Shown piece after piece: positions 6,117-45,577 of a stretch of 58,482 bases of DNA. The notes beneath the pieces are model-generated. The model worked only from the letters and a program-made list of their open reading frames with translations, had not been told where the DNA came from and made no database searches. This DNA is from Prevotella sp. (GTDB lineage: Bacteria; Bacteroidota; Bacteroidia; Bacteroidales; Bacteroidaceae). The stretch is from assembly GCA_017483185.1 (NCBI GenBank), contig JAFULM010000035.1:1-58482 (forward strand). Direction: 5' to 3'. How positions within the stretch are numbered: the first letter of the stretch is position 1; each line of letters starts with the position of its first letter. The position numbers were made by a program, and so were the translations under genes.

Positions 6117-6229
6117 CCTGCCGTAAGGGCCTCCCGAGGTTGCCGTAAGGGCCCCGTTGCATCGCCGTAAGGCCGCCGTCGTACTGCGAAAGCGGCCCCG
6201 CGACAACCCAAGGAGGCCCTTACGGCAGG
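6117..6229 (+). repeat. 113-bp covarying hairpin element, copy A
   Basis: Perfect 18-bp inverted arms at 6117-6134 (CCTGCCGTAAGGGCCTCC) and 6212-6229 enclose 77 bases. The total length of 113 bp is the same as copies C (38518-38630) and D (45465-45577). Inside, GGTTG/CAACC extends the stem past a small internal loop, and GGCCGC/GCGGCC forms an inner hairpin. It lies between the divergent TonB receptor and FtsZ-fragment genes. The 5' flank homology seen in the other copies is weak here (AAAAATTCTGAATTT at 5920-5934). Confidence 0.8.
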
Positions 6230-6292
6230 AAAACGGCAGCTTTTCGGGGCAAAATCAGCAATCAAAAACACGACGAAATCTCCGCTTCAGAA

Positions 6293-6381
6293 GAGCCGTA
6301 AGGCCTTCCTTGCTATGAAATTGCGCAGAAACCTGTTCGCCGACGCAATCCTGTCACGAGCCGGGAGGCCCTTACGGCCTC
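6293..6381 (+). repeat. Second, imperfect hairpin related to copy A
   Basis: GAGCCGTAAGGCCTTCC (6293-6309) and GGGAGGCCCTTACGGCCTC (6363-6381) pair with one bulge. The GCCGTAAGG(G)CCT word is the same as in the copy A arms, so this is probably a partial or degenerate duplicate of the element beside it. No coding sequence spans it convincingly. Confidence 0.6.
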
Positions 6382-6763
6382 AAAACGCCCTCCGAAATGA
6401 GCAAAACCGAGCTTTCCGGAATATTGGTTTTTGTAAAGATATGCGACACTCATCACCTTTTTTTTGGGGGGGCGACACTCCGCACACTTTCTTCAGCCTA
6501 CACCAACACAACGGACTCACTTAAAGATAGCTCATCCTACTTTGCGGCTGTAAATATCGGATGAACCTTAAAGATTTCCCAATGATGTCGTTGTTTGTTG
6601 ACTCTTTAGAATTCAAAAGAGGCAATCCTCAATGCTGCTAACCACGCCAAAATTCGGGTGAAAGACATTTTTTAGAAATATTACATCACAAGCCTTGCGG
6701 GAAATTCATGCTTTCGGTTTCTTTCATTACCTTTGTCAAGAAATTAAAAAAGGAACAGAATTT
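6382..6763. other. Gene-free gap
   Basis: 382 bases between the hairpin repeats and the FtsZ fragment. It holds a T8-G7 homopolymer junction at about 6459-6473, which is not inside a gene, and AT-rich sequence before the FtsZ-like start that may be a copy of the native ftsZ upstream region. No promoter, RNA or terminator was recognised. Confidence 0.4.
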
Positions 6764-6958
6764 ATGAACGACGACCAGCTGATAAACTTCGGAGAACCCG
6801 TGACGGACCAGTCGCAAAACATCATTAAGGTAATCGGTGTTGGTGGCGGTGGATGCAACGCCGTACGCAACATATACAACGAAAAGATAACAGGAGTGAC
6901 ACTTGCCGTGTGCAACACGGATAGCAAGTCGCTCGCACCATCGCCCGTGCCCGTGAAA
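6764..6958 (+). pseudogene. FtsZ N-terminal fragment
   Basis: From ATG 6764 about 65 codons match the FtsZ N-terminus: IIKVIGVGGGGCNAVRNIY (first nucleotide-binding loop), GVTLAVCNTDSKSLAPSPVPVK. Homology stops at about 6958, and the frame then runs through unrelated sequence to TAG 7001-7003. The tubulin signature GGGTGTG, the T7 loop and the whole C-terminal domain are missing, so it cannot polymerise. A complete ftsZ presumably exists elsewhere in the division cluster. The clean join to a different gene remnant in another frame indicates a duplication plus deletion. If translated, the 79-residue product could bind FtsZ through its N-terminal face, but nothing here requires that. Confidence 0.75.
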
Positions 6959-7560
6959 ATGACACCACACCCGAGAACATCGCAAGACAGCTATCGCTAT
7001 TAGTGAATCAACTGCGGAGAATGGAGCGGACAGATCTGCTGCTCCACTCCACCGGCATACCCGTATTGGAAGAGTTGCGCATCGAGGCGGCAAAGAGCAA
7101 GTTGAGCCATCTGCGAATAACGAAAGACTATCGGTTTGTTCTCACAGACTACAATCGCGAGGTGGAGCTTCAGCCCGTACACAAGGCTGTATATATGCTC
7201 TTTCTTGCTCACCCCAAGGGCATCGAGTTCAAAAGACTTGCCGACCATCGCGACGAATTGCTGCGATACTACATGGCAACGGCAAGCAGCATGGACAAAC
7301 AGAAAATTGAAGAGAGCGTAGACCGGCTCGTCAATCCGCTCGACAACGCCATAAATGAGAAATGCTCGCGCATAAAGAAAGTGTTTCTTGAAATAATGGA
7401 TCCATATACGGCCAGTTACTATATCGTCAGCGGCCATACCCGGCGTCATGTCTCCGGAACCTCCAAGATATGGTTTGAACGGCTCAAACTCATAACACTG
7501 CCACGGGAGCTTGTCATAACTGACAATCCGGATGTCATTCGCTTATTGCAGCGAGACTGA
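6959..7560 (+). pseudogene. 5'-truncated conserved hypothetical with winged-helix-like block
   Basis: The frame ending at TGA 7558-7560 is open back to 6925, but gene-like sequence (ENIARQLSLLVNQLRRMERTDLL) begins only at the FtsZ junction near 6960. This suggests the 5' part was lost. Possible restarts are GTG 7003, overlapping the previous stop, and ATG 7021. The middle block ELQPVHKAVYMLFLAHPKGI followed by LADHRDELLRYY looks like a winged-helix unit, and the C-terminal part (WFERLKLITLPRELV) is unrecognised. I do not know the family. It may still produce a 180-185 residue protein. Confidence 0.5.
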
Positions 7561-7577
7561 ATTAAGACGTGGAGCTG

Positions 7578-8612
7578 TCATTCGTTGACCGCGCCGCAGA
7601 CGGGGCAGACGCCTTTACGGCGCATCTCCGCCCCGCAACGGCCGCAGATATAGCCGTTACGTGAACAGCGGAGATAGCGGCGGACGGCGAAGACGATATA
7701 AACGACGAGCAACGGATAGCCGGCGTAATATAGCGTGGAGATGCTGAACACGATGTAGTTGACCGCACAGACTGCCGCCAACCCGCAGAGATAGAGAATG
7801 GCTTCGCCGACGGAAAGGCGTCGGAAGACATCGTCAGCCACGGCCAACGCCACGATGATGAGCGTCCAAACGAGACACATGAATATCCCGAGATGGAGCG
7901 GAAGGGAGAAGGGATTGAGCGACGGATGGTAATAGAAATGACGCCACGACTCGGCCCCGAAAAGCTGGATGGAGGCGTAGACGACGGCTGAAGTGGCGAC
8001 AAGCAAGGCCAACAGTGTGGGATAAAACGAGGATATATCGCGGAAATGAACTATACGCGCATTATGGCGTTTGAGGAAACGGAGGCCATAGACGGCTGTC
8101 ACTATCACAACGAAAGAAAGGAAAATGAGAAGATGGACGTCGGAGAAGATGTCTATAAATTGTGAAATAGGGTCATCAGGGTTTACAGCCGGCAACATGA
8201 TGTTCTCGCGTATCCAGCCTTGGGTGGCCTGGTCGCGGGCTATCTTAACCCAAACGGAGTCGATGGTGTCTGCCGGCATTGTCATTATGTCGGCGACGAC
8301 AACACGATCACCACGTATGACGGTGACTGAATCGAAAGGCAATTCGTCCGGAGCCTGACACACTATCCGCAATGAGTCTGCTTTGACGACAAAGTTATAG
8401 TTTTGTGCATAATGATGGGTTGTGGAGAATGAGATGGAATCCAATTGTCTTTCGGTGAGATTCCACGCGTCGGGTGTGCGCTCCGAGGAATTGTAGCATG
8501 ACGACAGTACGGCTACACAAGCCATGAGACACATGACCAAAGCACGGTCGGGAAACCGAAGCCAAGGCCGGATGCGGTCTGGTATATTAGAATATGATGC
8601 GGTTGTTCTCAT
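7578..8612 (-). CDS. Membrane lipoprotein with C-terminal zinc ribbon
   Basis: 344 residues. A hydrophobic N-terminus ends in the lipobox VLSSC (about residues 35-39). There follows a periplasmic region of roughly 110 residues with an SH3-like flavour (GDRVVVADIM..DSVWVKIARDQATQGWI), then about five membrane helices between residues 155 and 320. The last 20 residues are a zinc ribbon, CGRCGAEMRRKGVCPVC, on the cytoplasmic side. It is the last gene of the kinase operon, 14 bases after the U32 gene. The zinc ribbon matches the theme of the first, third and fourth genes of that operon, so it may be a membrane anchor or sensor for the same module. No named family is recognised. Confidence 0.75.
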   Translation of the reverse strand: MRTTASYSNIPDRIRPWLRFPDRALVMCLMACVAVLSSCYNSSERTPDAWNLTERQLDSISFSTTHHYAQNYNFVVKADSLRIVCQAPDELPFDSVTVIRGDRVVVADIMTMPADTIDSVWVKIARDQATQGWIRENIMLPAVNPDDPISQFIDIFSDVHLLIFLSFVVIVTAVYGLRFLKRHNARIVHFRDISSFYPTLLALLVATSAVVYASIQLFGAESWRHFYYHPSLNPFSLPLHLGIFMCLVWTLIIVALAVADDVFRRLSVGEAILYLCGLAAVCAVNYIVFSISTLYYAGYPLLVVYIVFAVRRYLRCSRNGYICGRCGAEMRRKGVCPVCGAVNE

Positions 8613-8626
8613 TCTTCCTGATTGAT

Positions 8627-10468
8627 TTAGTATTTTGTCTCCTCTTTATACAACGACATCCGGCAGTGACGACAGTCAAACTCCAAACGGAAACGGCGCC
8701 CGTCGGGAAGAGAGAGGAACAGCGGTTCACGCCATGTGGGGCGACGTCCACCATGCTTAACACAAAATCCGAGTGCATAACGCAGACAGTAACGACACTG
8801 CATCAGTGGCGCTTTGCTATCGGGACGCAATTCAAAAGCCGGTGAAATGTCAGACATTCCGCATCCGGCGTAATATCGGCGGGCGGCATCATTGGCTACA
8901 TTGTGGAAACATGTATAGGGGTAAGACGGTGCAGGACGCGACGGATTGGAAGCCGGAACGATGCTCTCGCGGCCATCAAGGGGTCTGTTTTGGTATTCCG
9001 CCATCAGTTGTTCGACGGCAGAACGGCGCAATTGGGCCAGACGACCGGCTGGAATGAACCACCGGAAATCACCATCGAGCACGACATCCGAACACTCGTA
9101 GGGAGTGTTGCCAAGTTTCGTGAGCTGGCGTATGATATTGTCACGCTGGGGTTGCTGCGCCTCCTGATGCTCTGCCTCCATCGCGACTGTCACACTACGA
9201 CCGCCGATGACAGTTGCTGTGAGACAAAAACCGGAGTCAGTCGCGTCAAGGGTCATGCGCAATGGTATCTTACGCTCTGCGCTGGGGCGTTCCAACAGGG
9301 TCTCAAACTCTCTGTCACTATTGCGATAAAGGCGTGTCCCCTGACGCAGACGTGACGGCATCTTCTGCGGAAAGAGGCGATTTCCCTCGACTCTATTGAC
9401 TCTGAAGCCCTCCAACTGGCGTTCCTCGTTGAGGAAGCACAAGCCGTCTCCGTTGGAAAACGAAGACAAGCCGGCCACATTAAAAGAATTACCACGAATC
9501 TCTTTGACAGTACCGACAAACTCGCCGATGGCCTTTGGGGTATCCATTGAGGATATGTCGGAACGACGGCCGTCAAGAAAGTAGTCGGTGAAACCTCGGT
9601 TGAACGTCTTGCTCAGATTGGGTTCGAACGTATAACGGCAACGCCCTAATGATGCGCGACGATAAAGATCGGGATGACGACGTATGATTGTGTCAAGTCG
9701 GCGGCTATAAGCTGCTGTCACATTCTTAACATAAGCTACGTCTTTCAACCGTCCTTCAATCTTGAATGACGTAGCTCCGGCAGCGACAAGCTGTTCCAGA
9801 CCGTCGCAACGGTTCATATCTTTCAGCGAAAGCAGATGGCGGCCACGCTCTATGACACGGTCGTCGGCATCCGTCAAGTCAAAGCGGAGACGGCAGAACT
9901 GTGCGCACTCTCCCCTATTGGCGGAACGGCCGAAGCAGGATTGGGATGCATAACAGAGGCCACTGTATGACACACATAACGCTCCATGAACAAAAACTTC
10001 CAATTCCACATCGGGAACAGCAGCATGTATGGCGGCAATGTCTTCTGCGGAAAGTTCACGAGCCAACACCACACGGCTGAAACCGGAATCCCGCAGCCAC
10101 TCTACTTTGTCTGACGTGCGGTTATCCATCTGCGTACTGGCATGCAGAGCCATCCTTCTGACCATGCCGACGACAGCCAGATCCTGCACAATGACGGCAT
10201 CGACACCAGCGGCTTCCAGACTTTCGATCAGTCTGCGGGTGTCCGCAAGTTCCTTATCATACACGATGGTGTTGACTGTAACATAAACCTTTGCCGCATA
10301 CAGATGGGCATAACGGCACAATTCGGCGATGTCATCAACTGAATTTCCTGCGGCCGCACGTGCGCCGAAATGTTCGGCACCGATATAGACAGCATCGGCG
10401 CCATGATCTATGGCGGCCTTTCCACATTCGAGATTGCGGGCAGGGGCAAGAAGTTCTAAATATGTCAC
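8627..10468 (-). CDS. U32 family peptidase-like (RlhA/TrhP-type RNA hydroxylation protein)
   Basis: 613 residues. The N-terminal TIM-barrel-like region starts LELLAPARNLECGKAAIDHGADAVYIG, typical of U32 proteins. The family signature (ELEVFVHGALCVSYSGLCY) carries Cys165, Cys172, Cys178, Cys188 and Cys192, and the CFGRSANRGECAQFCR block matches the cluster that holds an Fe-S centre in RlhA/TrhP-type members. These hydroxylate 23S rRNA or tRNA uridines rather than cleaving peptides. A C-terminal extension carries a second Cys group (MQCRYCLRYALGFCVKHGG, FDCRHC). The GTG start overlaps the metA stop by four bases (GTGA), showing translational coupling. Which RNA it acts on is not visible. Confidence 0.85.
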   Translation of the reverse strand: MTYLELLAPARNLECGKAAIDHGADAVYIGAEHFGARAAAGNSVDDIAELCRYAHLYAAKVYVTVNTIVYDKELADTRRLIESLEAAGVDAVIVQDLAVVGMVRRMALHASTQMDNRTSDKVEWLRDSGFSRVVLARELSAEDIAAIHAAVPDVELEVFVHGALCVSYSGLCYASQSCFGRSANRGECAQFCRLRFDLTDADDRVIERGRHLLSLKDMNRCDGLEQLVAAGATSFKIEGRLKDVAYVKNVTAAYSRRLDTIIRRHPDLYRRASLGRCRYTFEPNLSKTFNRGFTDYFLDGRRSDISSMDTPKAIGEFVGTVKEIRGNSFNVAGLSSFSNGDGLCFLNEERQLEGFRVNRVEGNRLFPQKMPSRLRQGTRLYRNSDREFETLLERPSAERKIPLRMTLDATDSGFCLTATVIGGRSVTVAMEAEHQEAQQPQRDNIIRQLTKLGNTPYECSDVVLDGDFRWFIPAGRLAQLRRSAVEQLMAEYQNRPLDGRESIVPASNPSRPAPSYPYTCFHNVANDAARRYYAGCGMSDISPAFELRPDSKAPLMQCRYCLRYALGFCVKHGGRRPTWREPLFLSLPDGRRFRLEFDCRHCRMSLYKEETKY

Positions 10469-11382
10469 TCTATCTTGTTTATATCGTAAGGTGTTTCCTG
10501 ATAAACATAATAGTTTATCCAGTTGTTATAAAAAAGATTGGCATGAGCACGCCACGTTACAAGTGGTGACTGTGACGGGTCATCATCCTTATAGTAGTTG
10601 ACAGGCATATCGACATCGTCGCGTATGTCTTTGTCACGCCGATATTCTTTGTCAAGTGTGTCCGGCGAATATTCAAGATGGCCCGTTATGAAAAATTCAC
10701 GACCTCCACGTGCCATCACAATGCTGACACCACTCTCGTCTGACTCCGCAATGAGTGACAACTCGGGATTGGCGAGGATATCCTCACGTCTTACCTCTGT
10801 ATGACGGCTGTGGGGCATATTGAAAACATCATCGAAACCACGGAAGATCGGAAGGCGGGGGTCTGATATCTGTTGCTTGAATATGCCAAACATCTTGCGC
10901 GACAACGGATATTTCGGAATACCGTAATGATAATACAACCCGGCTTGTGCAGCCCAACATATATATAATGTAGAGGTGACATGGGTGCGGGCCCAAGCAA
11001 AGATGGTCTTCATCTCATCCCAATAAGTCACTTCCTCGTAACGATAGGTCTCAACCGGTGCTCCCGTTATTATCATTCCGTCAAACTTTTCGTCGGCCAT
11101 CTCTGCAAAATCGCGGTAGAACATCATCATGTGTTCTATCGGAGTGTTCTTTGGTGTGTGGCTCTTCAGTTTCATAAAACTCACGTCCAACTGCAACGGG
11201 GTGTTGGACAGCAGGCGGACGAGGTCCGTCTCTGTCGTTATCTTGAGCGGCATGAGATTGAGAATGACAATCCGCAACGGGCGAATATCCTGAGACACAG
11301 CCCGCGAGTTGTCCATGACAAATATGTTTTCCTGCTTCAGCAATTCAATGGCAGGAAGTCTGTCCGGCAATCTTAATGGCAT
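10465..11382 (-). CDS. metA: Homoserine O-acetyltransferase (MetA family)
   Basis: 305 residues, the normal family length. It acylates homoserine in methionine biosynthesis. Cys142 in LYICWAAQAGLYYHYGIPK is the catalytic nucleophile. Residue 111 is Glu (GAPVE), and in this family Glu111 goes with acetyl-CoA use while Gly111 goes with succinyl-CoA. Acetyl transfer is therefore predicted despite the frequent name homoserine succinyltransferase. It lies 20 bases downstream of the PP2C gene and overlaps the U32 gene, so methionine synthesis would be co-transcribed with the kinase/phosphatase genes. No methionine-linked riboswitch is seen in the operon. Confidence 0.93.
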   Translation of the reverse strand: MPLRLPDRLPAIELLKQENIFVMDNSRAVSQDIRPLRIVILNLMPLKITTETDLVRLLSNTPLQLDVSFMKLKSHTPKNTPIEHMMMFYRDFAEMADEKFDGMIITGAPVETYRYEEVTYWDEMKTIFAWARTHVTSTLYICWAAQAGLYYHYGIPKYPLSRKMFGIFKQQISDPRLPIFRGFDDVFNMPHSRHTEVRREDILANPELSLIAESDESGVSIVMARGGREFFITGHLEYSPDTLDKEYRRDKDIRDDVDMPVNYYKDDDPSQSPLVTWRAHANLFYNNWINYYVYQETPYDINKIE

Positions 11383-11402
11383 AAGCTATCCTGATTTTTG
11401 TT

Positions 11403-12152
11403 TTATATAATACTTGCTACACATACTGACACATTATCATACCCACCGGCTTCTATGGCTGCTGAACACAACATGTCGGCATCTCCTTTGCCCGACATGA
11501 GCAACTGGCATATCTCTTTGTCTGACAACATATCGTATAGGCCATCCGAACACATCATGTAAAGATCTCCATCACGCATATCATCGGATATATCACTGAT
11601 GTCAAGCCACGATTGGGCGATATTGGCACCGATACAATTAGTCACGACACACGAATGGGCGGCATCACCGGTGAGGGTATTCAGCGAATGGTCCACGGTC
11701 AGTTGGGTCAACTGTCCGTCACGCAAACGATAAAGGCGGCTGTCTCCACAACTCACCGTAAAGAAACGACCGTCGTAACAGATCATAGCGACAAGTGTCG
11801 TTCCCATGTTAAACAAAGAGGAATCGACATGTCCTTTGGATGAAATGATGAGATTGATGGACTCCAACCATTCATTCATAAGAACTCTAAAACCGGTCCG
11901 ATCAAGCCCTTCCGGCATGTCTCCGACGAAAAAGCGGAGATTGGTCAGTGCCTCCAGACTGGCAACCTCACCGGCATTGCAGCCTCCAAGGCCATCGGCC
12001 AATGCCACAGCGAAACGCGAATGACCATCGATGATGATTTCATCACTATATGTTCGATTTCTAATAAGCTCTCCGGCCACCAACACCATATCCTCATTAT
12101 GGGTTCTGACAGACCCCGTCTGACAGGAAGCCGATATTAATAACTTATTCAT
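11403..12152 (-). CDS. PP2C-family Ser/Thr protein phosphatase
   Basis: 249 residues, a stand-alone PP2C catalytic domain like Stp/PrpC. The metal-binding and active-site motifs are all present in order: HNEDMV (18-23), ADGLGG, VSCGDSRLYRLRDG, MMCSDGLYDML and the terminal GGYDNVSVCV. The expected role is to remove phosphate from targets of the Ser/Thr kinase encoded upstream in the same operon (16069-19053). There is no signal peptide or membrane segment, so it is cytoplasmic. It follows the FHA gene by 62 bases. Confidence 0.92.
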   Translation of the reverse strand: MNKLLISASCQTGSVRTHNEDMVLVAGELIRNRTYSDEIIIDGHSRFAVALADGLGGCNAGEVASLEALTNLRFFVGDMPEGLDRTGFRVLMNEWLESINLIISSKGHVDSSLFNMGTTLVAMICYDGRFFTVSCGDSRLYRLRDGQLTQLTVDHSLNTLTGDAAHSCVVTNCIGANIAQSWLDISDISDDMRDGDLYMMCSDGLYDMLSDKEICQLLMSGKGDADMLCSAAIEAGGYDNVSVCVASII

Positions 12153-12214
12153 ATCTGTCGAAACATTTATTTATTCGTTCACTTTTAATATCAAACATCA
12201 TTATGGGACTGACA

Positions 12215-12715
12215 TCATGATATCTCCACTAAAAAGTCAAGAGTGGCAATTGACACCGTGTCGCCGTTAGTGATAGCAGTAATACAACCGGGATGCAACT
12301 GCTTGTTATTGACTTTTGTCCCGTTTGAAGAGTTCTTGTCCACTATCCCCCACCCGATTGTAGGGTCATACACAAGCTGTGCATGCACACCCGAAATATA
12401 TTTGTTTTGTTCGAGCAGCTGATGATAAGGGCCTTGACGCCGCCCTATCACAGCACCATTAGCGCCCAAGAGGCTTATACCAAACTGAGCATTGCTCATT
12501 TTCAGTGTGGGAATAGTGTCGGGAATAGTAAATGAGACTGCTGTCGGCAAAGAGTCATCCTTTGCCTCCCACATCAATCCACCACAATATATGCAATGAC
12601 GCCCCGTTCCCACACGGCCACAACTGCTACAATAGAACAATTTTTGCCCGCATTGGTCGCAATAACGGGAGTTGTTTTCTATCTCCTCTTTACAATTTGG
12701 ACATGTTATCATCAT
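12215..12715 (-). CDS. Zinc-ribbon FHA-domain protein
   Basis: 166 residues. Two zinc ribbons open the protein (CPNCKEEIENNSRYCDQC, residues 5-22, and CSSCGRVGTGRHCIYC, about 29-44). The C-terminal part is a forkhead-associated domain with the phosphothreonine-binding signature residues: GRRQG, SGVHAQL and NSSNGTKVN. FHA domains bind phosphothreonine, so this is the likely reader of the co-encoded kinase. The zinc ribbons probably tether it to other zinc-ribbon members of the operon or to the AAA protein, whose gene ends 37 bases upstream. There is no membrane segment. Confidence 0.9.
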   Translation of the reverse strand: MMITCPNCKEEIENNSRYCDQCGQKLFYCSSCGRVGTGRHCIYCGGLMWEAKDDSLPTAVSFTIPDTIPTLKMSNAQFGISLLGANGAVIGRRQGPYHQLLEQNKYISGVHAQLVYDPTIGWGIVDKNSSNGTKVNNKQLHPGCITAITNGDTVSIATLDFLVEIS

Positions 12716-12752
12716 ATCATCTCGCTTTTACTGTCTTATTGTATCATACTTG

Positions 12753-16061: not shown

Positions 16062-16068
16062 ACGCGTC

Positions 16069-19954: not shown

Positions 19955-20142
19955 AGTAAAAAATTTCACAACAAGGCGAAAATAATCCGCTAAATATCCA
20001 TTGGACTTAATCTTTCTTTTCCAATCTGTTATACAGGATTTACAAAACGACAAGCGGGAACGCCATCCACACTTAGTGCAAGTGGTGCTACAACTTACAA
20101 AAAATCTTCGCGTCCATGCGTTTTTACGCCGGAACCGAATTG

Positions 20143-20430
20143 TTAAAAACTCGGAATTAAACTGACAAGTGCCTCTGTATTTTTTGCGATATTCATAAAA
20201 GACAATCCAAAGGGCACAAATTTGCGAATTTTGAGCGTGCATCTTTTACTACCTGACACACAGGCCGTTATAAACAAAACAGCAAAAGTGTGCAAACAAA
20301 ATCACGGCAAAGGTTTTGCCGTAAGGCCCTTACGGGGTTGCAACGGGGCGCTCGTTGCATGACGACGGGGCGCTCGCTGCAGTACAACGGCGTGCCCGTT
20401 GCGACCCCGGGAGGGCCTTATTGGTCGGCA
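20143..20430 (+). repeat. Hairpin repeat element, copy B with 5' flank
   Basis: The 5' flank begins TTAAAAACTCGGAAT (20143-20157). At 20223-20247 it carries a 25-base block that matches copy D (45374-45398) at 23 positions. The core (about 20316-20430) is an imperfect hairpin: GCCGTAAGGCCCT on the left pairs with AGGGCCTTATTGGTCGGC on the right with a five-base bulge, then GGGGTTGCAACGGG pairs with CCCGTTGCGACCCC with one mismatch. An inner CAACGG/CCGTTG hairpin is also present. It lies between the divergent zinc-ribbon and NfeD-like genes. Nothing else but the two promoters was seen in 19955-20720. Confidence 0.7.
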
Positions 20431-20654
20431 ACGGAGAAAATTTCGGATGACAACGGCGGCAAAATGTCAAGATTTCGGCTTTACACCGCTCTTTTATTGA
20501 AAATCTCAAATGTTAAATTTTGGGATTTTTTATGACACAAAAGAGGACTGATTGACTAACTGCCTTTCTCTTTCAAATATACGTCGTCACGTCTTCCAAC
20601 GTTAAAGAAAAATAAAAACCAAAACTCAATCATACGCATATCGTCATTTTTAAC

Positions 20655-23003: not shown

Positions 23004-23080
23004 CAATCCCAATGATAAAATCAGAAACGGCCGCTGCGGAATTTCCGCGGTGGCCGTTTCTGATTTTATCATTGGGATTG
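23004..23080. terminator. Long hairpin between flotillin and M13 peptidase genes
   Basis: Arms of 37 bases (23004-23040 and 23044-23080) pair with only two mismatches around a three-base ATT loop. The arms read CAATCCCAATGATAAAATCA at the outer end and are GC-rich near the loop. It sits six bases after the flotillin stop and serves convergent genes from both sides, so it probably acts as a bidirectional terminator or mRNA 3' end. No clear T-run follows. Confidence 0.75.
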
Positions 23081-33516: not shown

Positions 33517-33546
33517 CAAATATACGAAAAAGTTTTAAATATACAA
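33517..33546 (-). promoter_or_regulatory. Consensus promoter of the candidate RNA
   Basis: TATATTTG (33517-33524) and TTG within a T-run (33544-33546), 19 bases apart, are an excellent Bacteroidota promoter on the minus strand. No annotated gene starts within 400 bases of it. The rest of the gap up to the AraC gene stop (33547-33752) is AT-rich, and nothing was recognised in it. Confidence 0.75.
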
Positions 33547-33752
33547 AAAAACGTTGTAAAATTCTTCCAACATCCGACATTAATGACGGACAAATGACGA
33601 ACAGGGAAAAAGGAACGATGTCCATATCAACCGTCGACAGCACAAAAAAATTCCATAACAGAAATGCCGATACCAGCTCGTGAAGAAACGGTATCGGCAT
33701 TTTTGTCATGAAATCAACATTCAGGAAAAAGCCGGCGGGACAGCCGCAAGCA

Positions 33753-34643: not shown

Positions 34644-34705
34644 ATTCTTGTATATTCCAAGACACTGATATTGCGTCTTATCATTATAACGTAACGGCTG
34701 ACGGA

Positions 34706-35824: not shown

Positions 35825-35825
35825 G

Positions 35826-37580: not shown

Positions 37581-37666
37581 TGTATTTGTTCCTTTGTAGT
37601 TTCTTTCTTCATTTCTAATAATGGTATATAACTAAGACGCGAAGTCCGCAGCTACGGCATCGCCGC

Positions 37667-38209
37667 CTATCCGACAGACCGTCCCATCTCGTATGCCTCC
37701 GCCAGCGCCTTATGGCCGGCGACGTCACCCATATCGTTGACACCTCCGGCAAAGACGCTGCCCGCGAGGCGGCACTTGGGATAGCAGGCAATCCATCCGC
37801 CGAGTCCGTGGACAGCACCTTCGGGTGTCTCCGCCTCATCTTCTGCGGCTGCCGTGAGCATGTAGATGTCGCGGAAACGGTAGTCGGTGTCATAGAGCGC
37901 GTTGGCACGGTCGAGCAATGTCTTCATCTGGCCGCTCATCTCATAATAATAAATAGGTGTGGCGTAGGCAATGACATCGGCATCATGCATCTTCCGGATG
38001 ATGGGATTCATATCGTCGTCGATGACACATTTCCCGAGTTTGCCGCAGGAGAGACATCCTCGACAGAAACGGATGTCCTTTCCTCTCAACGTTATTTTCT
38101 CAACCTCATGGCCGGCATCTGCCGCACCACGCACGAACTCATCCGCCAAAGCCTCCGAATTGCTCTTCGGACGCAGGCTTGTCGATATCACCAATACCTT
38201 TTTGCTCAT
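37667..38209 (-). CDS. Flavodoxin-type NAD(P)H-dependent oxidoreductase
   Basis: 180 residues. The N-terminus KKVLVISTSLRPKSNSEALADEF is the phosphate-binding loop of the NADPH-dependent FMN reductase/flavodoxin-like fold. DVIAYATPIYYYEMSGQMKTLLDR is the typical flavin-site block. A Cys set, FCRGCLSCGKLGKCV (48-62), is common in iron-sulfur flavoproteins of this group and may bind a cluster. It leads the minus-strand set of flavodoxin, DXS-like, CMD-cupin and AraC genes from a strong promoter at 38244-38274. Substrate unknown. Confidence 0.88.
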   Translation of the reverse strand: MSKKVLVISTSLRPKSNSEALADEFVRGAADAGHEVEKITLRGKDIRFCRGCLSCGKLGKCVIDDDMNPIIRKMHDADVIAYATPIYYYEMSGQMKTLLDRANALYDTDYRFRDIYMLTAAAEDEAETPEGAVHGLGGWIACYPKCRLAGSVFAGGVNDMGDVAGHKALAEAYEMGRSVG

Positions 38210-38243
38210 AATTCCGATGTGATTTTGTTAATGTTTCCGGATG

Positions 38244-38274
38244 CAAAATTACTGATTTATAATGAATAAACAAA
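38244..38274 (-). promoter_or_regulatory. Promoter of the flavodoxin-DXS-like operon
   Basis: TAATTTTG (38244-38251) and TTTG (38271-38274) on the minus strand with 19 bases between the -7 element and the TTG match the Bacteroidota consensus closely. The predicted start lies about 30 bases before ATG 38209. The stretch 38275-38517 holds nothing else recognised. Confidence 0.72.
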
Positions 38275-38517
38275 TACCCGGATTTTGGCAATAGTTACCC
38301 GTTTTAAGGATAATATGGTTCTTTCGGAATATGGAGTGACTGTTGCTTGCAAAATATGATCGCGACCATATTAAGATCTCGATTCATAAGTCTTCCAAAG
38401 AAAAGCATGTCACGATAATATCAAAAATTTAACATTTAAGATTCTCTTGAAAATGACACGATATTGCCATTGTTTTAACATTTGCACGTCATTTTCCGAC
38501 CGAAAAAATCCGGCGGT

Positions 38518-38787
38518 CTTGCCGTAAGGGCCTTATTGGTCTGCAACGGGCACGCCGTTATCGTCCGACGAGCACGCCGTTGCAACACAACGAGGGCCCC
38601 GTTGCAAAGCAATAAGGCCCTTACGGCAAGAGCGAAAAAACGTCGCAATTTTTCAGAATAGCGTAACTTACAGAATGACAAGCACTTGCAAAAACCGCCG
38701 AATTTTTGCGATTTTTGGCCCTCGGGACAATTATTTCCGAATCATCTCAATTTTACGGGAAGTTTGTAAAGTTTATTCTGAGTTTTT
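38518..38787 (-). repeat. Hairpin repeat element, copy C (inverted)
   Basis: The core at 38518-38630 has perfect 21-bp arms (38518-38538 and 38610-38630) around 71 bases, total 113 bp. Inside, TGCAACGG/CCGTTGCA and CAACG/CGTTG form two hairpins. On the right, the complement of the flank motif AAAAACTCAGAAT lies at 38775-38787, so this copy points left, opposite to copies A, B and D. It lies between the divergent flavodoxin and NifU-like genes. The arms share only 14 of 21 bases with copy D, yet each copy is self-complementary. Confidence 0.8.
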
Positions 38788-39002
38788 AACACTTCGTCCC
38801 GACGCATCTTCATATAAACAGTCACATTTTGGAGACCTGTTACTTGAAATACAACTCCAATTGCCGGATAAACCGGAAAATTGCCACCCACACATATCAA
38901 ACATATACCAAGCCAAGTATCTTTTTTCTACAAAGCCGGAAAATGGCGTTAAAGAGTTGAAAAAGAATACCCGATAATAGGTATTTATTCCGAATATTTT
39001 AG

Positions 39003-39010
39003 TAATTTTG
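39003..39010 (+). promoter_or_regulatory. -7 element of the NifU-like/GGGtGRT operon
   Basis: TAATTTTG, 59 bases before ATG 39069. A clear TTG at -33 was not seen. The leader is AT-rich without evident structure. Confidence 0.5.
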
Positions 39011-39068
39011 CGCTCGTAAAACTAAAATATAGTATTAGTATTCATTATTTATATAAACTGTAAAGAAT

Positions 39069-39770
39069 ATGACTTATTCTAACGAAGTCAACAACATGTG
39101 CGTTGTTGCCAAAGGCCCGAACCACGGCCCCGCCCCCATTCCCGAAGAAGGAAAATGGATTCAGGCAAAGGAAATAAAGGACATCTCCGGTTACACCCAC
39201 GGTGTGGGTTGGTGTGCACCTCAGCAGGGTGCCTGCAAACTCTCTCTGAACATCAAGGAGGGCGTCATCCAGGAGTGCCTCGTCGAGACAATCGGATGTA
39301 CCGGTATGACTCACTCTGCCGCTATGGCTTCTGAGATTCTTCCGGGCAAGACCATCCTCGAAGCTCTCAACACGGACCTCGTGTGCGACGCTATCAACAC
39401 CGCCATGCGCGAGCTGTTCCTGCAGATCGTTTACGGACGTTCACAGAGCGCATTCTCTGAGGACGGACTCGTCATCGGTGCCGGTCTCGAGGACCTCGGC
39501 AAGGGTCTGCGCAGCCAGACAGGTACGCTCTACGGAACAGTTGCCAAGGGTACACGCTACCTCGAACTGACCGAAGGCTACATCACAAAGATGTTCCTCG
39601 ACAAGGACAATCAGGTGTGCGGCTACGAGTATGTACACCTCGGCAAGATGATGGAGGCCATCAAGGCCGGCATGGACGCCAACGAGGCCGTGAAGAAATT
39701 CACCGGTTCTTACGGACGCACAACTGCCGAGCAGGGAATTGTTAAGACTATTGACCCACGTAAAGAATAA
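39069..39770 (+). CDS. NifU/IscU-like iron-sulfur scaffold protein
   Basis: 233 residues. An IscU-like core carries Cys49 (GVGWCAPQQG), Cys56, Cys70, Cys77 (ETIGCTGMTHSAAMAS) and Cys106. The GCTGMTHSAAMASEILPGKT block corresponds to the middle Cys region of NifU-type scaffolds. The C-terminal 100 residues are an extension specific to this subgroup. The gene is followed after 15 bases by the GGGtGRT gene, with which it seems to form a fixed pair. A cluster-assembly or carrier role is likely, but the partner enzyme is not known. Strong codon preference (frequent CTC, GGT, AAG) suggests high expression. Confidence 0.8.
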   Translation: MTYSNEVNNMCVVAKGPNHGPAPIPEEGKWIQAKEIKDISGYTHGVGWCAPQQGACKLSLNIKEGVIQECLVETIGCTGMTHSAAMASEILPGKTILEALNTDLVCDAINTAMRELFLQIVYGRSQSAFSEDGLVIGAGLEDLGKGLRSQTGTLYGTVAKGTRYLELTEGYITKMFLDKDNQVCGYEYVHLGKMMEAIKAGMDANEAVKKFTGSYGRTTAEQGIVKTIDPRKE

Positions 39771-39785
39771 GAGGAGGACCGACTA

Positions 39786-40799
39786 ATGATAAGAAAAGTA
39801 AGTTTTGAGAGCCAGGAGCGTCGCATCAAGCAGGTTATCGCTACGCTCAACGAGAACGGTATCAAGGACATCGAAGAGGCAAACCAGATTTGCGAAGAGG
39901 CCGGCATCGATCCCTATCAGATTTGCGAGGACACACAGCGCATCTGCTTCGAGAACGCAAAGTGGGCATACGTATGCGGTGCTGCCATCGCTATCAAGAA
40001 GGGCGTGAAGAGCGCTGCCGACGCTGCTGAGGCCATCGGTCTCGGTCTGCAGAGCTTCTGCATCCCCGGTTCTGTTGCTGACGACCGCAAGGTAGGTATC
40101 GGCCACGGTAACCTCGCTGCCCGTCTGCTCCGCGAGGAGACACAGTGCTTCGCCTTCCTCGCCGGTCACGAGAGCTTCGCAGCTGCCGAGGGTGCCATCA
40201 AGATTGCCGAAATGGCAAACAAGGTGCGCAAGAACCCGCTCCGCGTCATCCTCAACGGACTCGGCAAGGACGCAGCCATGATCATCAGCCGCATCAACGG
40301 TTTCACATACGTACAGACCAAGTTCGACTACTATACAGGCAAGGTTGAGGTCGTAAACCGCACCGCTTATTCTGACGGTCCGCGTGCCAAGGTCAACTGC
40401 TACGGCGCTGACGACGTCCGCGAAGGTGTTGCCATCAACTGGTTGGAGGACGTAGACGTGTCCATCACCGGTAACTCGACCAACCCGACACGCTTCCAGC
40501 ACCCCGTTGCCGGAACGTACAAGAAGGAGCGCGTGCTCGCCGGCAAGCCCTACTTCTCAGTAGCTTCAGGTGGCGGTACAGGCCGCACGCTCCATCCGGA
40601 CAACATGGCCGCCGGTCCCGCTTCATACGGTATGACCGACACATTGGGCCGCATGCACTCTGACGCTCAGTTCGCAGGTTCTTCTTCAGTGCCTGCTCAC
40701 GTTGAGATGATGGGCTTCCTCGGTATCGGCAACAACCCGATGGTTGGTGCTACCGTAGCAATCGCCGTCGAAATCGACATGGCTCTGAACAAGAAGTAA
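39786..40799 (+). CDS. GGGtGRT protein
   Basis: 337 residues. The family is named for the motif seen here as SGGGTGRTLHPDNMA in the C-terminal third. Other conserved-looking blocks are KFDYYTGKVEVVNRTAYSDG and FLGIGNNPMVGATVAIAVEI. There is no signal peptide or membrane segment. The biochemical function is unknown. The tight pairing with an iron-sulfur scaffold gene suggests a metallo-enzyme or cluster-dependent protein, and several Cys (residues 36, 46, 52, 60) near the N-terminus could be ligands. An Rho-independent terminator follows at 40873-40903. Confidence 0.9.
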   Translation: MIRKVSFESQERRIKQVIATLNENGIKDIEEANQICEEAGIDPYQICEDTQRICFENAKWAYVCGAAIAIKKGVKSAADAAEAIGLGLQSFCIPGSVADDRKVGIGHGNLAARLLREETQCFAFLAGHESFAAAEGAIKIAEMANKVRKNPLRVILNGLGKDAAMIISRINGFTYVQTKFDYYTGKVEVVNRTAYSDGPRAKVNCYGADDVREGVAINWLEDVDVSITGNSTNPTRFQHPVAGTYKKERVLAGKPYFSVASGGGTGRTLHPDNMAAGPASYGMTDTLGRMHSDAQFAGSSSVPAHVEMMGFLGIGNNPMVGATVAIAVEIDMALNKK

Positions 40800-40872
40800 T
40801 CTGGTAAAGTAAAACTAAATGCCAAACGTCGTGAGACGTGTCATTAGAATTATATTTTTCATGGTATTTTTG

Positions 40873-40903
40873 ACCTGCGCTCTTCGGAGTGCAGGTTTTT
40901 TTT
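40873..40903 (+). terminator. Intrinsic terminator of the GGGtGRT operon
   Basis: ACCTGCGCTC and GAGTGCAGGT pair over 10 bp (one G-U) around a TTCG tetraloop, followed by eight T. A textbook terminator 74 bases after the stop. Confidence 0.9.
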
Positions 40904-41031
40904 GCCGATACGACAAACAATAAACGCCGCTACACAAACGTTGATATAATGAAGTGTGACAGTCAAGGCAACATTACTTCAAGAAAAACAAAGGCACATC
41001 GCATACAACCCAAATAGAGATATTGAACATC

Positions 41032-42279
41032 ATGGAGAGGACATATATAATTATAATAAGGTGTATAGGCGTCATCATTTGCCTGTTCACTGCCATTTCC
41101 GGAGCAGACGCTGTCAGGCAGACCATCCACAGTCCACATGTAAAGACACTGCAGGCTGTGGTCAACCGCGACTGGTTGTCACCGCCCGTGATGACATTGG
41201 GTTCCGACGACGTCCTCAATATCGCCTTCGACGAACTCTCACACGAGTATCACCGCTTCACATACCACATCGAACATTGCGAGGCAGACTGGTCACCGTC
41301 AACAGAACTGTTTGAAAGCGACTATCTCAGCGGTTTCAACGACAACCCGATCGAGGACTACCAGAACTCCATCAACACCACGGTGCTATACACCCACTAC
41401 TCCATGCAACTGCCGAACGAGCGCTGCCGCCTGAAAATGAGCGGCAACTATCGCCTCACAATATTGGATGAGGACGGCGACAAGGCCGCCGAAGTGCGCT
41501 TCATGGTCGTCGAACCGCTGATGAACGTAAGCCTCGAATGTCTCACCAACACCGACATTGACATCAACAAGAGCCACCAACAGATTTCAATGGGTGTCTC
41601 TTTCGGAACGCTCCGCGTAACCAATCACAGCGAACAAGTCCATGTCGTGGTCAGCCAGAACGACCGTGACGACAACATCAAGACCGGGATGAAGCCGGCA
41701 ATCATCACCGCCCGCGGACTGGAATGGCGCCACTGCCGCGACCTGATATTCCCAGCCGGCAACGAATACCACAAATATGAAATTCTGGACGTCAGCCATC
41801 CCACGATGGGAATAGAACGGATAGTCTGGGACGGCAACGACTACAACGTCTATCCGTTTGCTTCCGGCATGCGGGCTAACTACCTTTACGACCCGGACGC
41901 AAACGGTTCGTTCTACATCCGCAACAGCGACAACATCGAGAATGACATCATCAGCGAATACGTCTACGTCCACTACTGTCTCCTGTCGCCTCACGTCGCT
42001 GACGCCCGCATGGTCATCGACGGACGGTGGACGAGCGACGACAACATCGAGACATACACGATGCAGTATGACGAGGAGGCAGGCGCTTACCGCGCGGCCA
42101 TCATGCAGAAACAGGGCTACTATTCCTATCAATATCTCCTCAAGAAAGAAGACGGCACAACGGCCATCCCGCCGACGGAAGGCAGTTTCTATCAGACCGA
42201 GAACAGGTATCAGGCGTATGTCTACTACAAAGGTCAGGGAGAACGGACATGGCGTCTTGTCGGGTACAAACAGATTTAA
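41032..42279 (+). CDS. Type IX secretion system plug protein (DUF5103)
   Basis: 415 residues from ATG 41032; a TTG three codons earlier is less likely. The N-terminus ERTYIIIIRCIGVIICLFTA is a signal peptide. The mature start (HSPHVKTLQAVVNRDWLSPPVMTL) and the block YHIEHCEADWSPSTELFESD..NDNPIEDYQNSINT are the hallmarks of the DUF5103/plug protein. The plug closes the periplasmic or lateral gate of the SprA translocon of the type IX system. The C-terminal half (about 280-400) is a second beta domain. The core type IX genes are not in this window. It converges on the GH51 gene, with a 44-bp perfect hairpin between. Confidence 0.85.
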   Translation: MERTYIIIIRCIGVIICLFTAISGADAVRQTIHSPHVKTLQAVVNRDWLSPPVMTLGSDDVLNIAFDELSHEYHRFTYHIEHCEADWSPSTELFESDYLSGFNDNPIEDYQNSINTTVLYTHYSMQLPNERCRLKMSGNYRLTILDEDGDKAAEVRFMVVEPLMNVSLECLTNTDIDINKSHQQISMGVSFGTLRVTNHSEQVHVVVSQNDRDDNIKTGMKPAIITARGLEWRHCRDLIFPAGNEYHKYEILDVSHPTMGIERIVWDGNDYNVYPFASGMRANYLYDPDANGSFYIRNSDNIENDIISEYVYVHYCLLSPHVADARMVIDGRWTSDDNIETYTMQYDEEAGAYRAAIMQKQGYYSYQYLLKKEDGTTAIPPTEGSFYQTENRYQAYVYYKGQGERTWRLVGYKQI

Positions 42280-42283
42280 TATA

Positions 42284-42413
42284 TATTTTCGAGGAGTGTG
42301 GAGAGAGGAGTGAGGAGTGAGAATAGTTTTGTTATTGATTGACGACAGACGACGCCGTCATTCAACAAGACTATTCTCACTCCTCACTCCTCTCTCCACA
42401 CTCCTCGAAAATA
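42284..42413. terminator. Very long perfect hairpin between convergent genes
   Basis: Perfect 44-bp arms (42284-42327 and 42370-42413) enclose 42 bases. The arms are built of GGAGTG/GAGAG words (GAGGAGTGTGGAGAGAGGAG). It starts four bases after the plug gene stop and ends five bases before the GH51 stop. It probably acts as a two-way terminator or RNase III-type 3' processing site. The CCACACTCCTC word is shared with 23155-23195. Confidence 0.75.
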
Positions 42414-42418
42414 CTCCA

Positions 42419-45031
42419 TTAAAGCATCACCACCCGGAATGAATACGGCGGCAAAGTGATGCGCAACTTCTTGTCAGCACCCATCTTGAACGTACCGCGC
42501 TCCACGTCAACCATGCGCTGTCCGGGCTTTCCGCTGTATCCTTCGTAACGCACGATGTTGGCTATCGGCAGATTCTTGGCGTCGATGACAAGGTCGAGAG
42601 CGACCGGCAGGACATTGGCAATCTTCAGGAATGACTGTCCCGTGCGACTGTCACGCACGACACTTGCGGCCACCCGGTTGGTTGCAATGCTGTCAACCGT
42701 CAGTTGCGACTCAACATATTTGTTTCCCGAATAGGTCGAGAAGAGACGCTGGGTCTCGTAGCTCGGTGTCTTCTGGATGGACTTGTTGTCGAAATACATC
42801 ATGTCCGGACTCCAGTTGCTGTGGCCGTTTTTCGACAGCATCGGCGCGTAAGAGGTCATCGACACCACGTCGGCATTGCGCTCGATGTGGCACAGATAGG
42901 CTGCTTCGGCCAGGGCGCAGTCGAGTCCGCCCTTTCCCTGACGTGCGGCATACTCGCCGAGATAGACTTTCGGAGCCTTGCGGTCATAGCTGTCGTAGTA
43001 GTGCTGATTGTTGAGGAACCAGCCCACGCTCTCGTAATAATGTTCATCCACCATGTCGAGCACGCTGCTATTGTCGTTGGCAAACTTCCACCCTTCGATA
43101 TAGTCAGACGACGGATAGTGGAACGGGCCTACCGTACCGCACACGGTGATGTCGGGATAACGCTCCTTGATGGCACTGCATATCATGAGACAGCGCTCCT
43201 CAAACGTCGTGGAAATGATGTCCTCATTGCCTATTCCGATATACTTGAGATTGAACGGAGCGGGATGACCGGCGTCTGCGCGCATCTTTGCCCACTTGCT
43301 CGTGGCCGGGTCGCCGTTGGCCCACTCTATCATGTCGAGAATCTCCTGTATGTATGCGGGCATGTCGGCCATCGGAATACCACCCTGCTGGCCGCCATAG
43401 CCGTCCTTGTCAGGCTTTGAGTTCTGACACGGCACACCGGCAGCAAGCACCGGCAGCGGCTCGGCATGGATGTCTTCGCAGAACTGGAAATACTCGAAGA
43501 AGCCCAATCCGCGGGTCTGGTGATACTTCCATATATTGCGGTCGGGCACGCGGTCTTCCAGCGGTCCGACAGTATGGTTCCAGTGATAAATGTTGTCAAG
43601 TCCGTCGCCGTGGCTCATGCATCCGCCTGGGAAGCGCACGAACTTCGGATGAAGGTCGGCGATGGCCTGTGCGAGATCGCGGCGAAGACCATTCTTGCGA
43701 TTGTTGAATGTGTTCTGTGGGAAGAGACTGATCATGTCGACAGCCACCTCACCGTCCTTCTCCGGCACAATCATCAACTCAGCCTTGTCGGCATCAGCCG
43801 TCGGAGTGAGCACCGTTTCGTAGCGGTTCCACACACCTTCAGCGCCCTTGGTGTCAATCCGTGCCGACGCGAGCGTCCGTCCGCCGTCGACAAGAGCCAC
43901 CGTGAAACGCTTGGCACGACCGCCTATGTTGCGCACGCGGAAGCTGAAATCATAACTTTCCCCCTTGCGCACGAGCATGCCGTCCCAACCCGTATTATAT
44001 AATGTGTCAGTAGTCAGCACGGCATAATGGGGATTGTTCTTGCTCAGGGGCTTGTCCGTCATTATTTTCAGACCGCCGGCCGAGCGCCATGCCGTAGAGG
44101 CCGTCCAGTCCTTGTGGTCGCGCGACGTATATTCAAAATCACGATTCTGAACCATCTCGGCATACAGTCCGCCATCTGCGGCATAGCTGATGTCCTCGAA
44201 GAAGACACCCACGAGCTTGTCGCTGATGTCCTTCTGGCGCTTGCCGTCTATCGTGAGCGTAGCCACAGTCGGCTTGTTGCCGAGGGCATTACGCAACTCA
44301 TTGTCACGACCGACCATCAGATTGTCGAAAGCATAAATGCGCTCCAGCTCCTTCTGCTTTGTGAAGTATTCACACAAACTGTCCTCCAGTCCGAGACTCA
44401 CGTCCCACAAGAAGCCGGCCGGCGTAGGATTGCCTTTCCAAATCGGTCTGCCGGCAATGTCGTTCACCGCCACAGTGTCCGTCTTGACGCATGCGGCGTC
44501 ATATTCTCCCTGCGCAGCAGCCACGTCAGCCGTGAAGTGGCGGAACGTGGCGTCCGTCGTCGTCTTGCGCACCTGTCCGTCTTTTGTCCGGAAAAGCACC
44601 GTGTAGCGGCCGCCGCCGTCACTGCGTATCACCGGAGCCAGACACCCCTTGACCGACATGCGCGGATAGTCCTGTGGACGCCATGTGATGAGGTCGGCCG
44701 ACCAAGCCACGGCGAAACACGGCGAATAGTCATTGACCTGAAACACCGACGCATAGCCTCCTTCATCCAAACGGCAGATGAACGGTGCATACATGCGCTT
44801 CTCCGAACCCCAACTGGAATAATCGGAGGCGAAGAGTTGACCCAAATCCGTAAACATGGTGTCATTCTCATGCACAGCCACACGAAAACCCAATTTATCA
44901 CCCGGGCAATAAAGGAAAATCTCTGCCCGTGGCGGAGTCTTCTCTACGACCTTCCGGACTTTCTGTCCCACGGCCGGAATACACACAGATGCCATTAGCA
45001 GCATCAACGGTAACTTCTGTCTGATTGTCAT
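42419..45031 (-). CDS. GH51 alpha-L-arabinofuranosidase with N-terminal beta-propeller-like domain
   Basis: 870 residues with a signal peptide (QKLPLMLLMASVCIPAVGQ). Residues 35-245 resemble a five-bladed GH43-like module (MYAPFICRLDEGGYASVF, VAWSADLITWRPQDYPRMS, CLAPVIRSDGGGRYTVLF) without an obvious complete catalytic set. Residues 250-870 are a GH51 enzyme: VGVFFEDISYAADGGLYAEM, then the acid/base Glu603 in GIGNEDI and the nucleophile Glu693 in YLGEYA. A carbohydrate-binding-like insert lies at about 290-440. It releases terminal arabinofuranose from arabinan or arabinoxylan. No SusC/SusD or other glycoside hydrolases lie nearby, so it is an isolated CAZyme. Confidence 0.9.
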   Translation of the reverse strand: MTIRQKLPLMLLMASVCIPAVGQKVRKVVEKTPPRAEIFLYCPGDKLGFRVAVHENDTMFTDLGQLFASDYSSWGSEKRMYAPFICRLDEGGYASVFQVNDYSPCFAVAWSADLITWRPQDYPRMSVKGCLAPVIRSDGGGRYTVLFRTKDGQVRKTTTDATFRHFTADVAAAQGEYDAACVKTDTVAVNDIAGRPIWKGNPTPAGFLWDVSLGLEDSLCEYFTKQKELERIYAFDNLMVGRDNELRNALGNKPTVATLTIDGKRQKDISDKLVGVFFEDISYAADGGLYAEMVQNRDFEYTSRDHKDWTASTAWRSAGGLKIMTDKPLSKNNPHYAVLTTDTLYNTGWDGMLVRKGESYDFSFRVRNIGGRAKRFTVALVDGGRTLASARIDTKGAEGVWNRYETVLTPTADADKAELMIVPEKDGEVAVDMISLFPQNTFNNRKNGLRRDLAQAIADLHPKFVRFPGGCMSHGDGLDNIYHWNHTVGPLEDRVPDRNIWKYHQTRGLGFFEYFQFCEDIHAEPLPVLAAGVPCQNSKPDKDGYGGQQGGIPMADMPAYIQEILDMIEWANGDPATSKWAKMRADAGHPAPFNLKYIGIGNEDIISTTFEERCLMICSAIKERYPDITVCGTVGPFHYPSSDYIEGWKFANDNSSVLDMVDEHYYESVGWFLNNQHYYDSYDRKAPKVYLGEYAARQGKGGLDCALAEAAYLCHIERNADVVSMTSYAPMLSKNGHSNWSPDMMYFDNKSIQKTPSYETQRLFSTYSGNKYVESQLTVDSIATNRVAASVVRDSRTGQSFLKIANVLPVALDLVIDAKNLPIANIVRYEGYSGKPGQRMVDVERGTFKMGADKKLRITLPPYSFRVVML

Positions 45032-45140
45032 AATGTCTATATTGTTTTGTCTTAATAGTCAGCTCGCAATACGCATACAGCCGGACATCATCTGCACACA
45101 CACGTCCTGTGACAGAGGCTAACCGGGCCGCACACGTATG

Positions 45141-45148
45141 CAAAGATA
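45141..45148 (-). promoter_or_regulatory. -7 element of the GH51 gene
   Basis: TATCTTTG on the minus strand fits the consensus well. A TTG at 19-20 bases upstream is lacking. The leader to ATG 45031 would be about 100 bases. Beyond it, 45149-45295 shows nothing recognised. Confidence 0.5.
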
Positions 45149-45295
45149 CGGAAAATCAAACGAATAACGAAAGGTTTTCCCACCATTCGGCATTTTTCTC
45201 CATTCCTGCACTTTCGCGTGACACGCATACCACATTCCTATCATTCGGAAAACACCCCACGAGAGCAACCAAAGAAGACCGTTTTTTAAACGGCT

Positions 45296-45577
45296 GAAAA
45301 ACTCGGAATAATTCTTACAAACGCCCTCGATTTTAACACGAATTTGAAAAATAAAATCCCACGGCCGCAAATATGCGAGTTTTGCGCGTGCATCTTTTTC
45401 TTCCTGAGCGTCAAAACGTTACAGTGATTTCCACGAAAGTGTGCAACTTTTTCACCGTTTTTGTCTTGCAATAGCGGCCCCGTTGCATTGCAACAAGGCC
45501 CTCCTTGCATCACAACGGGCACGCCGTTGCACGACAAAACCTATGCCGTTGCGACCCAACGGGGCCGCTATTGCAAG
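45296..45577 (+). repeat. Hairpin repeat element, copy D with 5' flank
   Basis: The flank starts GAAAAACTCGGAAT (45296-45309). It includes the block TGCGAGTTTTGCGCGTGCAT (45374-45393) that matches copy B almost base for base. The core 45465-45577 is a perfect 21-bp inverted repeat (45465-45485 and 45557-45577) around 71 bases, total 113 bp. Inside, CAACGG-GCACG-CCGTTG and AAGG/CCTT form hairpins. Homology with copy B continues about 25 bases past the core. It lies between the divergent GH51 and methyltransferase genes. Confidence 0.82.

Follow-up and report, generated by a model that had tools for sequence, protein, structure and literature searches.

Why should four intergenic hairpins, scattered along one contig and uniform in length, carry sequence changes that appear in both arms together? 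The question is raised by a stretch of 58,482 nucleotides (here, the window) from Prevotella, a common gut genus; its source is a MAG, G000, of 2,472,748 bases in 61 contigs, 74.7% complete. A first, sequence-only reading took the hairpins to be one mobile or RNA-forming element. Mirrored changes in palindrome arms can mimic RNA covariation, and in this instance four copies were misleading: the wider family, together with orthologous copies in related genomes, points to copying of DNA. The four hairpins are members of one dispersed Prevotella repeat family of at least 125 arrays, and we think it probable—a little better than an even call—that this is a MITE-like repeat of one Prevotella clade, built on a phased DNA array, with arms that are matched by DNA-level copying.

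The four copies in the window

Copies A, C and D are each 113 bp long, with perfect arms of 18, 21 and 21 bp, as had been reported, and C does lie inverted relative to the others; outside that span the arms of C and D continue for 1 and 2 bp more, to 22 and 23 bp. Of the 21 arm positions, C and D differ at seven, namely 6, 7, 10, 11, 16, 17 and 18, and the opposite arm shows differences at exactly those, every change mirrored in its partner just as claimed. With the span fixed at 113 bp and base frequencies equal, a perfect arm of 18 bp is expected by chance about 1e-6 times per window. Copy B is indeed imperfect, 13 of the 21 positions of its outer arm being paired, but the length of 115 bp once assigned to it does not hold, for in register it, too, is 113 bp. 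The features are listed below; R1 is the family model, and the sisters are two related species represented by incomplete MAGs, G152 (Prevotella CAMWVS) and G224 (CAMVUM).

5913..6441, + strand: type-A module around copy A; ends as in other type-A copies; 5914-6441 matches G152 at 76%
6117..6229, + strand: five-palindrome array, copy A; R1 70.9 bits; 18-bp perfect outer arm
6292..6381, no strand given: degenerate second array-like stretch within copy A's type-A module; R1 E = 0.0011
20141..20537, + strand: type-1 module around copy B (TGTTAAAAACTC ... TTATGACA); from its ends and matches in G152 and G224
20315..20427, + strand: five-palindrome array, copy B; R1 93 bits; 113 bp in register
38408..38791, - strand: type-1-like module around copy C, with small flank indels; type-1 profile match; ends TGTCA and GAGTTTTTAACA
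38518..38630, - strand: five-palindrome array, copy C; R1 105.4 bits; 21-bp perfect arms
45295..45688, + strand: type-1 module around copy D; from its ends and type; site without the module in both sisters
45465..45577, + strand: five-palindrome array, copy D; R1 99 bits; 21-bp perfect arms

The 5' flank that B, C and D had been seen to share is real, and forms one end of a discrete module. Around copy B, 20138-20541, or nearly all of it, is matched as one unit at many places in G152 and G224, at about 66–74%. Copy B also sits at an apparent synteny break: the genes to its left match G152 contig C66 and G224 contig C23, those to its right C52 and C34, and in each sister one side is close to a contig end.

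All four copies were said to occupy divergent gaps, and by our gene calls—here and around all arrays, those of a crude codon-usage gene finder—they do, with copy A in doubt. The ORFs to the right of A (6695-7003 and 7003-7560) have weak codon-usage scores, the first has no Pfam match, and the match of one sister across the region leaves out the stretch of ORF 6695-7003; because of this, the gap may be tandem instead.

Family size and array anatomy

R1 was built from 41 copies, aligned over 113 columns with zero gaps. In G000 it finds at least 150 matches, both strands counted, and 148 of the 150 listed are exactly 113 bp. The genome-wide model search that the sequence-only reading had proposed resolves these into at least 125 distinct arrays, counted after the surrounding stretches had been fetched and reverse-complement duplicates merged (130 copies before merging, five of them such duplicates). 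This is a lower bound, 15 further listed places in G000 lying outside the count; a few pairs of arrays close to contig ends differ from each other at only 1–3 positions, and these could be assembly redundancy. The word GCCGTAAGG occurs 349 times in the MAG, versus 12 for its reversed control.

Each array comprises five 19-bp near-palindromes with 3-bp separators, a pitch of 22 bp, and 113 bp in total. Palindromicity is high in units 1–3 and lower in units 4 and 5, and it falls near to background at the flanking positions 0 and 6, both in the 125 arrays of G000 and in seven from another member of the genus, G153, to which we return; the units, then, number five. Perfect arms, so conspicuous in the window, are not a trait of the family: arms that pair perfectly over at least 18 bp occur in only 11 of the 125.

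Register is preserved over time. In 11 orthologous array pairs between G152 and G224, aligned with gaps allowed, there are 132 substitutions and 3 indel events; nine of the arrays have no indel, and two of the three events fall in the most divergent pair. These pairs were picked with an ungapped profile, which favours few indels, and the gap-tolerant R1 agrees, as the lengths of its listed matches attest. Around the same arrays, the first 180 bp to either side hold 459 substitutions and 21 indels; the 320 bp beyond, partly coding, hold 593 substitutions and 98 indels (42 per 294 and 56 per 299). That the register is kept suggests some function beyond passive spread.

Modules and their apparent movement

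Two sharp-ended types of module enclose 80 of the 125 arrays: type 1, of about 400 bp (34 arrays), and type A, of about 530 bp (46 arrays). The other 45, copy C included, are unassigned by ungapped flank scoring, and a gapped type-1 profile does find C. Type-1 modules start with TGTTAAAAACTC and end with TGACA, and within 20–30 bp of either end the information per column drops from about 1 bit to roughly 0.1. Internal blocks lie at fixed distances from the array; of the 130 copies counted before merging, for example, 32 have AGTGTGCAA at -27. As for terminal inverted repeats, those of type 1 (TGTTA...TGACA) are weak, and type A has none that is clear.

In size (within 50–1000 bp), high copy number, discrete ends and apparently non-coding character—no called gene contains any of the 125 arrays—the modules resemble MITEs. 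Target-site duplication left no trace in 23 type-1 copies: over 3–10 bp, the likeness between their outer flanks does not exceed that between shuffled flanks. Nor is the one site inspected in detail (C23:44037) a clean empty site, as it differs by several repeats at once. For these two reasons we label the modules 'MITE-like' rather than filing them as MITEs.

Dispersal is indicated by close copies at different sites, and by sites in the sisters that are without the module. Two modules with different outer flanks, L179 and L186, share 94% identity across 514 bp; two more, on separate contigs (L009 and L015), are also 94% identical. Module D is absent from its site in both sister species, which is the kind of vacant site in relatives that the earlier reading had recommended seeking; C23:44037 is a 1.2-kb gap in G000 versus 230 bp in both sisters. 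Some difference from the sisters is seen at the L071 site as well. Copies are inherited, too, for several modules of G152 and G224 pair by site in the tree. The copy number, the close copies and the sites without the module uphold the original supposition of one family, dispersed, and apparently mobile in the past.

At five sites shared with the sisters (all type 1, and assigned by the genes around them, for some sites by those on a single side), the G000 module is 74–94% identical to another G000 module and 53–61% to the sisters' modules at that place. The type-1 modules at these sites have thus undergone either concerted evolution within the lineage or replacement at the same sites. Such change is not general: array identity between G000 and a sister ranges from 58 to 84% (nine comparisons, eight sites), two sites, L058/L231 and L034/L207, being at 83–84% and the others at 58–73%.

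As we picture it, the element has at its core a rigid array of DNA, whose five near-palindromes of 19 bp sit between flanks that end sharply on the outside and come in two types or more; the 22-bp phase would line the palindromes up along the same side of the helix, where a putative dimeric DNA-binding protein could meet them; and the modules would be moved in trans by a putative enzyme.

Relatives, placement and a possible binding array

Both sister species carry the family, each with at least 150 R1 matches. R1 found no matches in 59 other genomes (E ≤ 0.001, strict filters), and found 82 in G153 and 6 in G128, two more members of the genus; since both lie outside the sample of 59, spread within the genus is under-sampled. 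The arrays of G128 are longer and looser than those of G000. The pattern GCAACGGN5CCGTTGC occurs in 12 of 200 genus genomes, eight of these with a single match, and the type-1 flank block in one of 120, namely G000 itself, the sample being one without G152. A single, weak array-like stretch was seen in the cultured species Xylanibacter rodentium (L228:4254-4366). Matches in Streptomyces and Eggerthellaceae, among 31 matching stretches, were set aside as chance. As for carriage by phages or plasmids, module B had no match, and one exact 19-base pattern was absent from viral contigs.

Seven G153 arrays, picked out by a model with five units, show five units at a pitch of 22 bp spelled in other words (CAACGGAG / CTCCGTTG), and no type-1 or type-A flank is visible by eye within the 70–90 bp shown. 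Some follow stop codons, some sit in convergent gaps and some precede starts, a placement unlike that in G000. A further G153 locus, L112, one of five picked by pattern, is a lone palindrome, not an array. Five units and a 22-bp pitch, retained in a genome that uses different words, amount to an unusual constraint, and hint at a putative DNA-binding factor. A pitch of 22 bp is close to two turns of the helix, which favours a putative DNA-binding dimer over RNA.

Perhaps, then, the array is maintained by the host rather than by its own spread: five phased sites for a conserved Prevotella dimer, nucleoid or regulatory, preserved by selection, with words that shift as protein and sites co-evolve. 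This explanation accommodates G153, where the plan persists with no module seen, and the rarity of indels within arrays, 3 per 132 substitutions; it is also consistent with type-1 sequence that is lineage-specific at shared sites, though gene conversion or re-invasion accounts for that equally well.

Placement is less obliging. For 103 of the G000 arrays both neighbouring genes were called; 52 of these arrays lie in divergent gaps, 46 in tandem and 5 in convergent ones, the other 22 arrays being left untyped. As the loci were chosen because they hold arrays, the proportions are not comparable with a genome-wide null. The divergent-gap rule drawn from the window thus breaks down across the family. 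The scarcity of convergent gaps in G000 speaks for host maintenance, the varied placement of the G153 arrays against it. Nor do the neighbouring genes share a function: of 30 proteins on or near the gaps, 24 have unrelated Pfam matches and six have none. The dimer, moreover, is a putative protein only. We regard host maintenance as a serious contender, and yet on balance unlikely.

The two ideas might be joined, and a genus-wide Prevotella system envisaged in which five-site, 22-bp-phased arrays serve one putative dimeric protein, with words that co-evolve with it, and with arrays that in one clade ride in mobile modules. This we offer as a conjecture, somewhat fainter still. If true, many sites per genome would change in concert while the number and spacing of sites stayed fixed.

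RNA fold or DNA copying?

Behind the mirrored arms, the sequence-only reading saw a fold that is kept while sequence is not. Arrays transcribed into a cloverleaf-like RNA, and kept by compensatory change, could behave in this way. Predicted folds are very stable (-63 to -79 kcal/mol), and the pairing and covariation score of the outer stem exceed those of all 500 shuffles, bearing in mind that related sequences may beat shuffles without any structure. G.T mispairs are a little more numerous than A.C (594 vs 518 in the units, 287 vs 242 in the outer arms), a slight strand preference. The long outer stem is missing from most copies, however; the number of outer-stem pairs with a two-sided change is unexceptional, being reached in 174 of 500 shuffles; and in the five unit self-hairpins neither the pairing, which 476 of 500 shuffles reach, nor the two-sided changes, nor the covariation score rises above them. 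Compensatory change across species, which might have spoken for RNA, is all but missing between the sisters: in 264 outer pairs of the 11 orthologous arrays, 38 changes are one-sided, and 2 are two-sided with pairing kept. With so few perfect arms, so few mirrored changes and such ordinary self-hairpins, the proposal that fold rather than sequence is kept is not supported. The unexceptional two-sided changes of the outer stem, the self-hairpin shuffles, the one-sided changes and the slightness of the G.T excess led us to reject an RNA fold as the conserved feature, and an RNA element seems to us very unlikely.

The alternative that the same reading had allowed for, arm matching by conversion within each palindrome, fits better than selection on RNA. 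Outer arms match better within copies than across them (1L/5R, 6.93 vs 6.17 of 8), and 18 or more of 21 outer positions match in 23.2% of comparisons within copies versus 9.5% across; homogenisation and selection could both produce this. Template switching at quasipalindromes, according to the accessible part of one account, homogenises arms and inverts spacers (PMC8604942), and here some of the spacers do appear in both orientations. The centre base of unit 1 has flipped between G and C in 5 of the 11 orthologous pairs, whereas the other sites, 1,232 in number, show 9 G/C changes (P about 9e-9), a one-nucleotide flip being indistinguishable from a G/C transversion hotspot; the flip is present in four of the six pairs with a contiguous arm of 8 bp or more. 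Among type-1 copies, the centre 7-mer and its reverse complement are balanced in unit 1 (AGGCCCT/AGGGCCT, 13:12) and in unit 3 (GGCACGC/GCGTGCC, 6:6), and are not in unit 5. Unit 2 keeps to one orientation (10:1 and 8:0), though its pairing is about as good as that of unit 3, and no unit-3 flips were seen between orthologs in the 11 sister pairs, so spacer inversion is not uniform.

We take the mirrored changes in the arms to reflect block copying by a process of the template-switch type. Within a palindrome, a template switch from arm to arm, or the processing of a cruciform, would overwrite one arm with a copy of the other and invert short spacers in passing, a mechanism that we infer from the centre flips and the one-sided changes. 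Products described at quasipalindromes, in the portions of the two reports available, likewise combine homogenised arms with inverted spacers (PMC8604942, PMC7202029). Template switching there is a mutational process, not a family of elements; in our case its substrate would be a repeated array. The family thus offers a natural system in which to measure template switching and concerted evolution in bacteria.

Could the palindromes instead be topological buffers, forming cruciforms where the DNA between two divergent genes is negatively supercoiled? Half of the typed gaps, 52 of 103, are divergent and few are convergent, and the centre flips suggest that hairpins form in the DNA. Against this, 46 gaps are tandem, G153 places its arrays differently, and cruciforms have no need of an exact 22-bp pitch; buffering is, we judge, slightly less credible even than an RNA element. 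Repeats of the REP or REPIN type, moved by a RAYT (Y1) transposase, are the least likely explanation of all, for while the family consists of high-copy intergenic palindromes, and Y1 (PF01797), the one partner-enzyme domain searched, occurs once in G000, it has no match in G152 or G224 (incomplete MAGs), rich as both are in R1 matches, and five units in 400–530-bp modules are unlike the REPIN plan.

Comparison with known repeats

REP, BIME and REPIN repeats are intergenic palindromic units of high copy number; the present family departs from them in its sister genomes without a Y1 match, its five units in fixed phase and its larger modules. The ends of Mu and Tn7 bear arrays of 22-bp transposase sites that are non-palindromic. 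Here, too, 22-bp units occur in an apparently mobile element, with the difference that they are palindromes and lie in the middle. Porphyromonas belongs to the same bacterial order as Prevotella, and the nearest known kind, judged by description rather than by sequence comparison, appears to be BrickBuilt of Porphyromonas gingivalis. As set out in the accessible part of its description, BrickBuilt is likewise intergenic, with a leader, a central tandem array and a tail, and has predicted stem loops, a species-limited distribution and no Rfam match (PMC4596501). A leader and tail of this kind accompany 80 of our 125 arrays; direct repeats variable in number do not. The same part of that source gives BrickBuilt 23-nt direct repeats, 1 to 22.8 of them, where ours are 22-bp palindromes, five in number, in a nearly fixed 113 bp; 12-nt TIRs like those of ISPg elements, and 4-nt TSDs at two sites, where ours have weak ends and no TSD; and 19 copies, where ours has at least 125 arrays and several flank types (PMC4596501).

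The sequence-only reading knew of no named family with these features, and nor do Rfam or the literature we searched, most subscription papers being outside its coverage. At gathering scores in the window, Rfam has no match for the copies; the gap of copy D yields one sub-threshold match, to sucC (E 0.95). The sole Rfam match in the window is a 6S-Bacteroidales RNA (RF01693; 132 bits) at 50941-51121.

Other features of the genome

G000 has other long inverted-repeat families, with perfect arms of 29–95 bp around variable loops, the GTAGGGTCGCGACCCGTCGCGACCGCC and CAGTCCCCTCCTT types among them; examples lie at 42284-42413 and 23004-23080 in the window, and at L005:1057-1341, L008:1827-2019 and L058:1892-2047. 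Perfect arm matching may be genome-wide in G000. Stretches of the MAG are duplicated between contigs C11 and C58, C25 and C27, and C59 and C61, and several contigs terminate close to type-A copies. Copy D, finally, is adjoined by a Type II restriction-modification pair, a methyltransferase (45800-47134) and a restriction enzyme (47146-48009), and this stretch, 45800-48009, and module D are missing together in both sister species.
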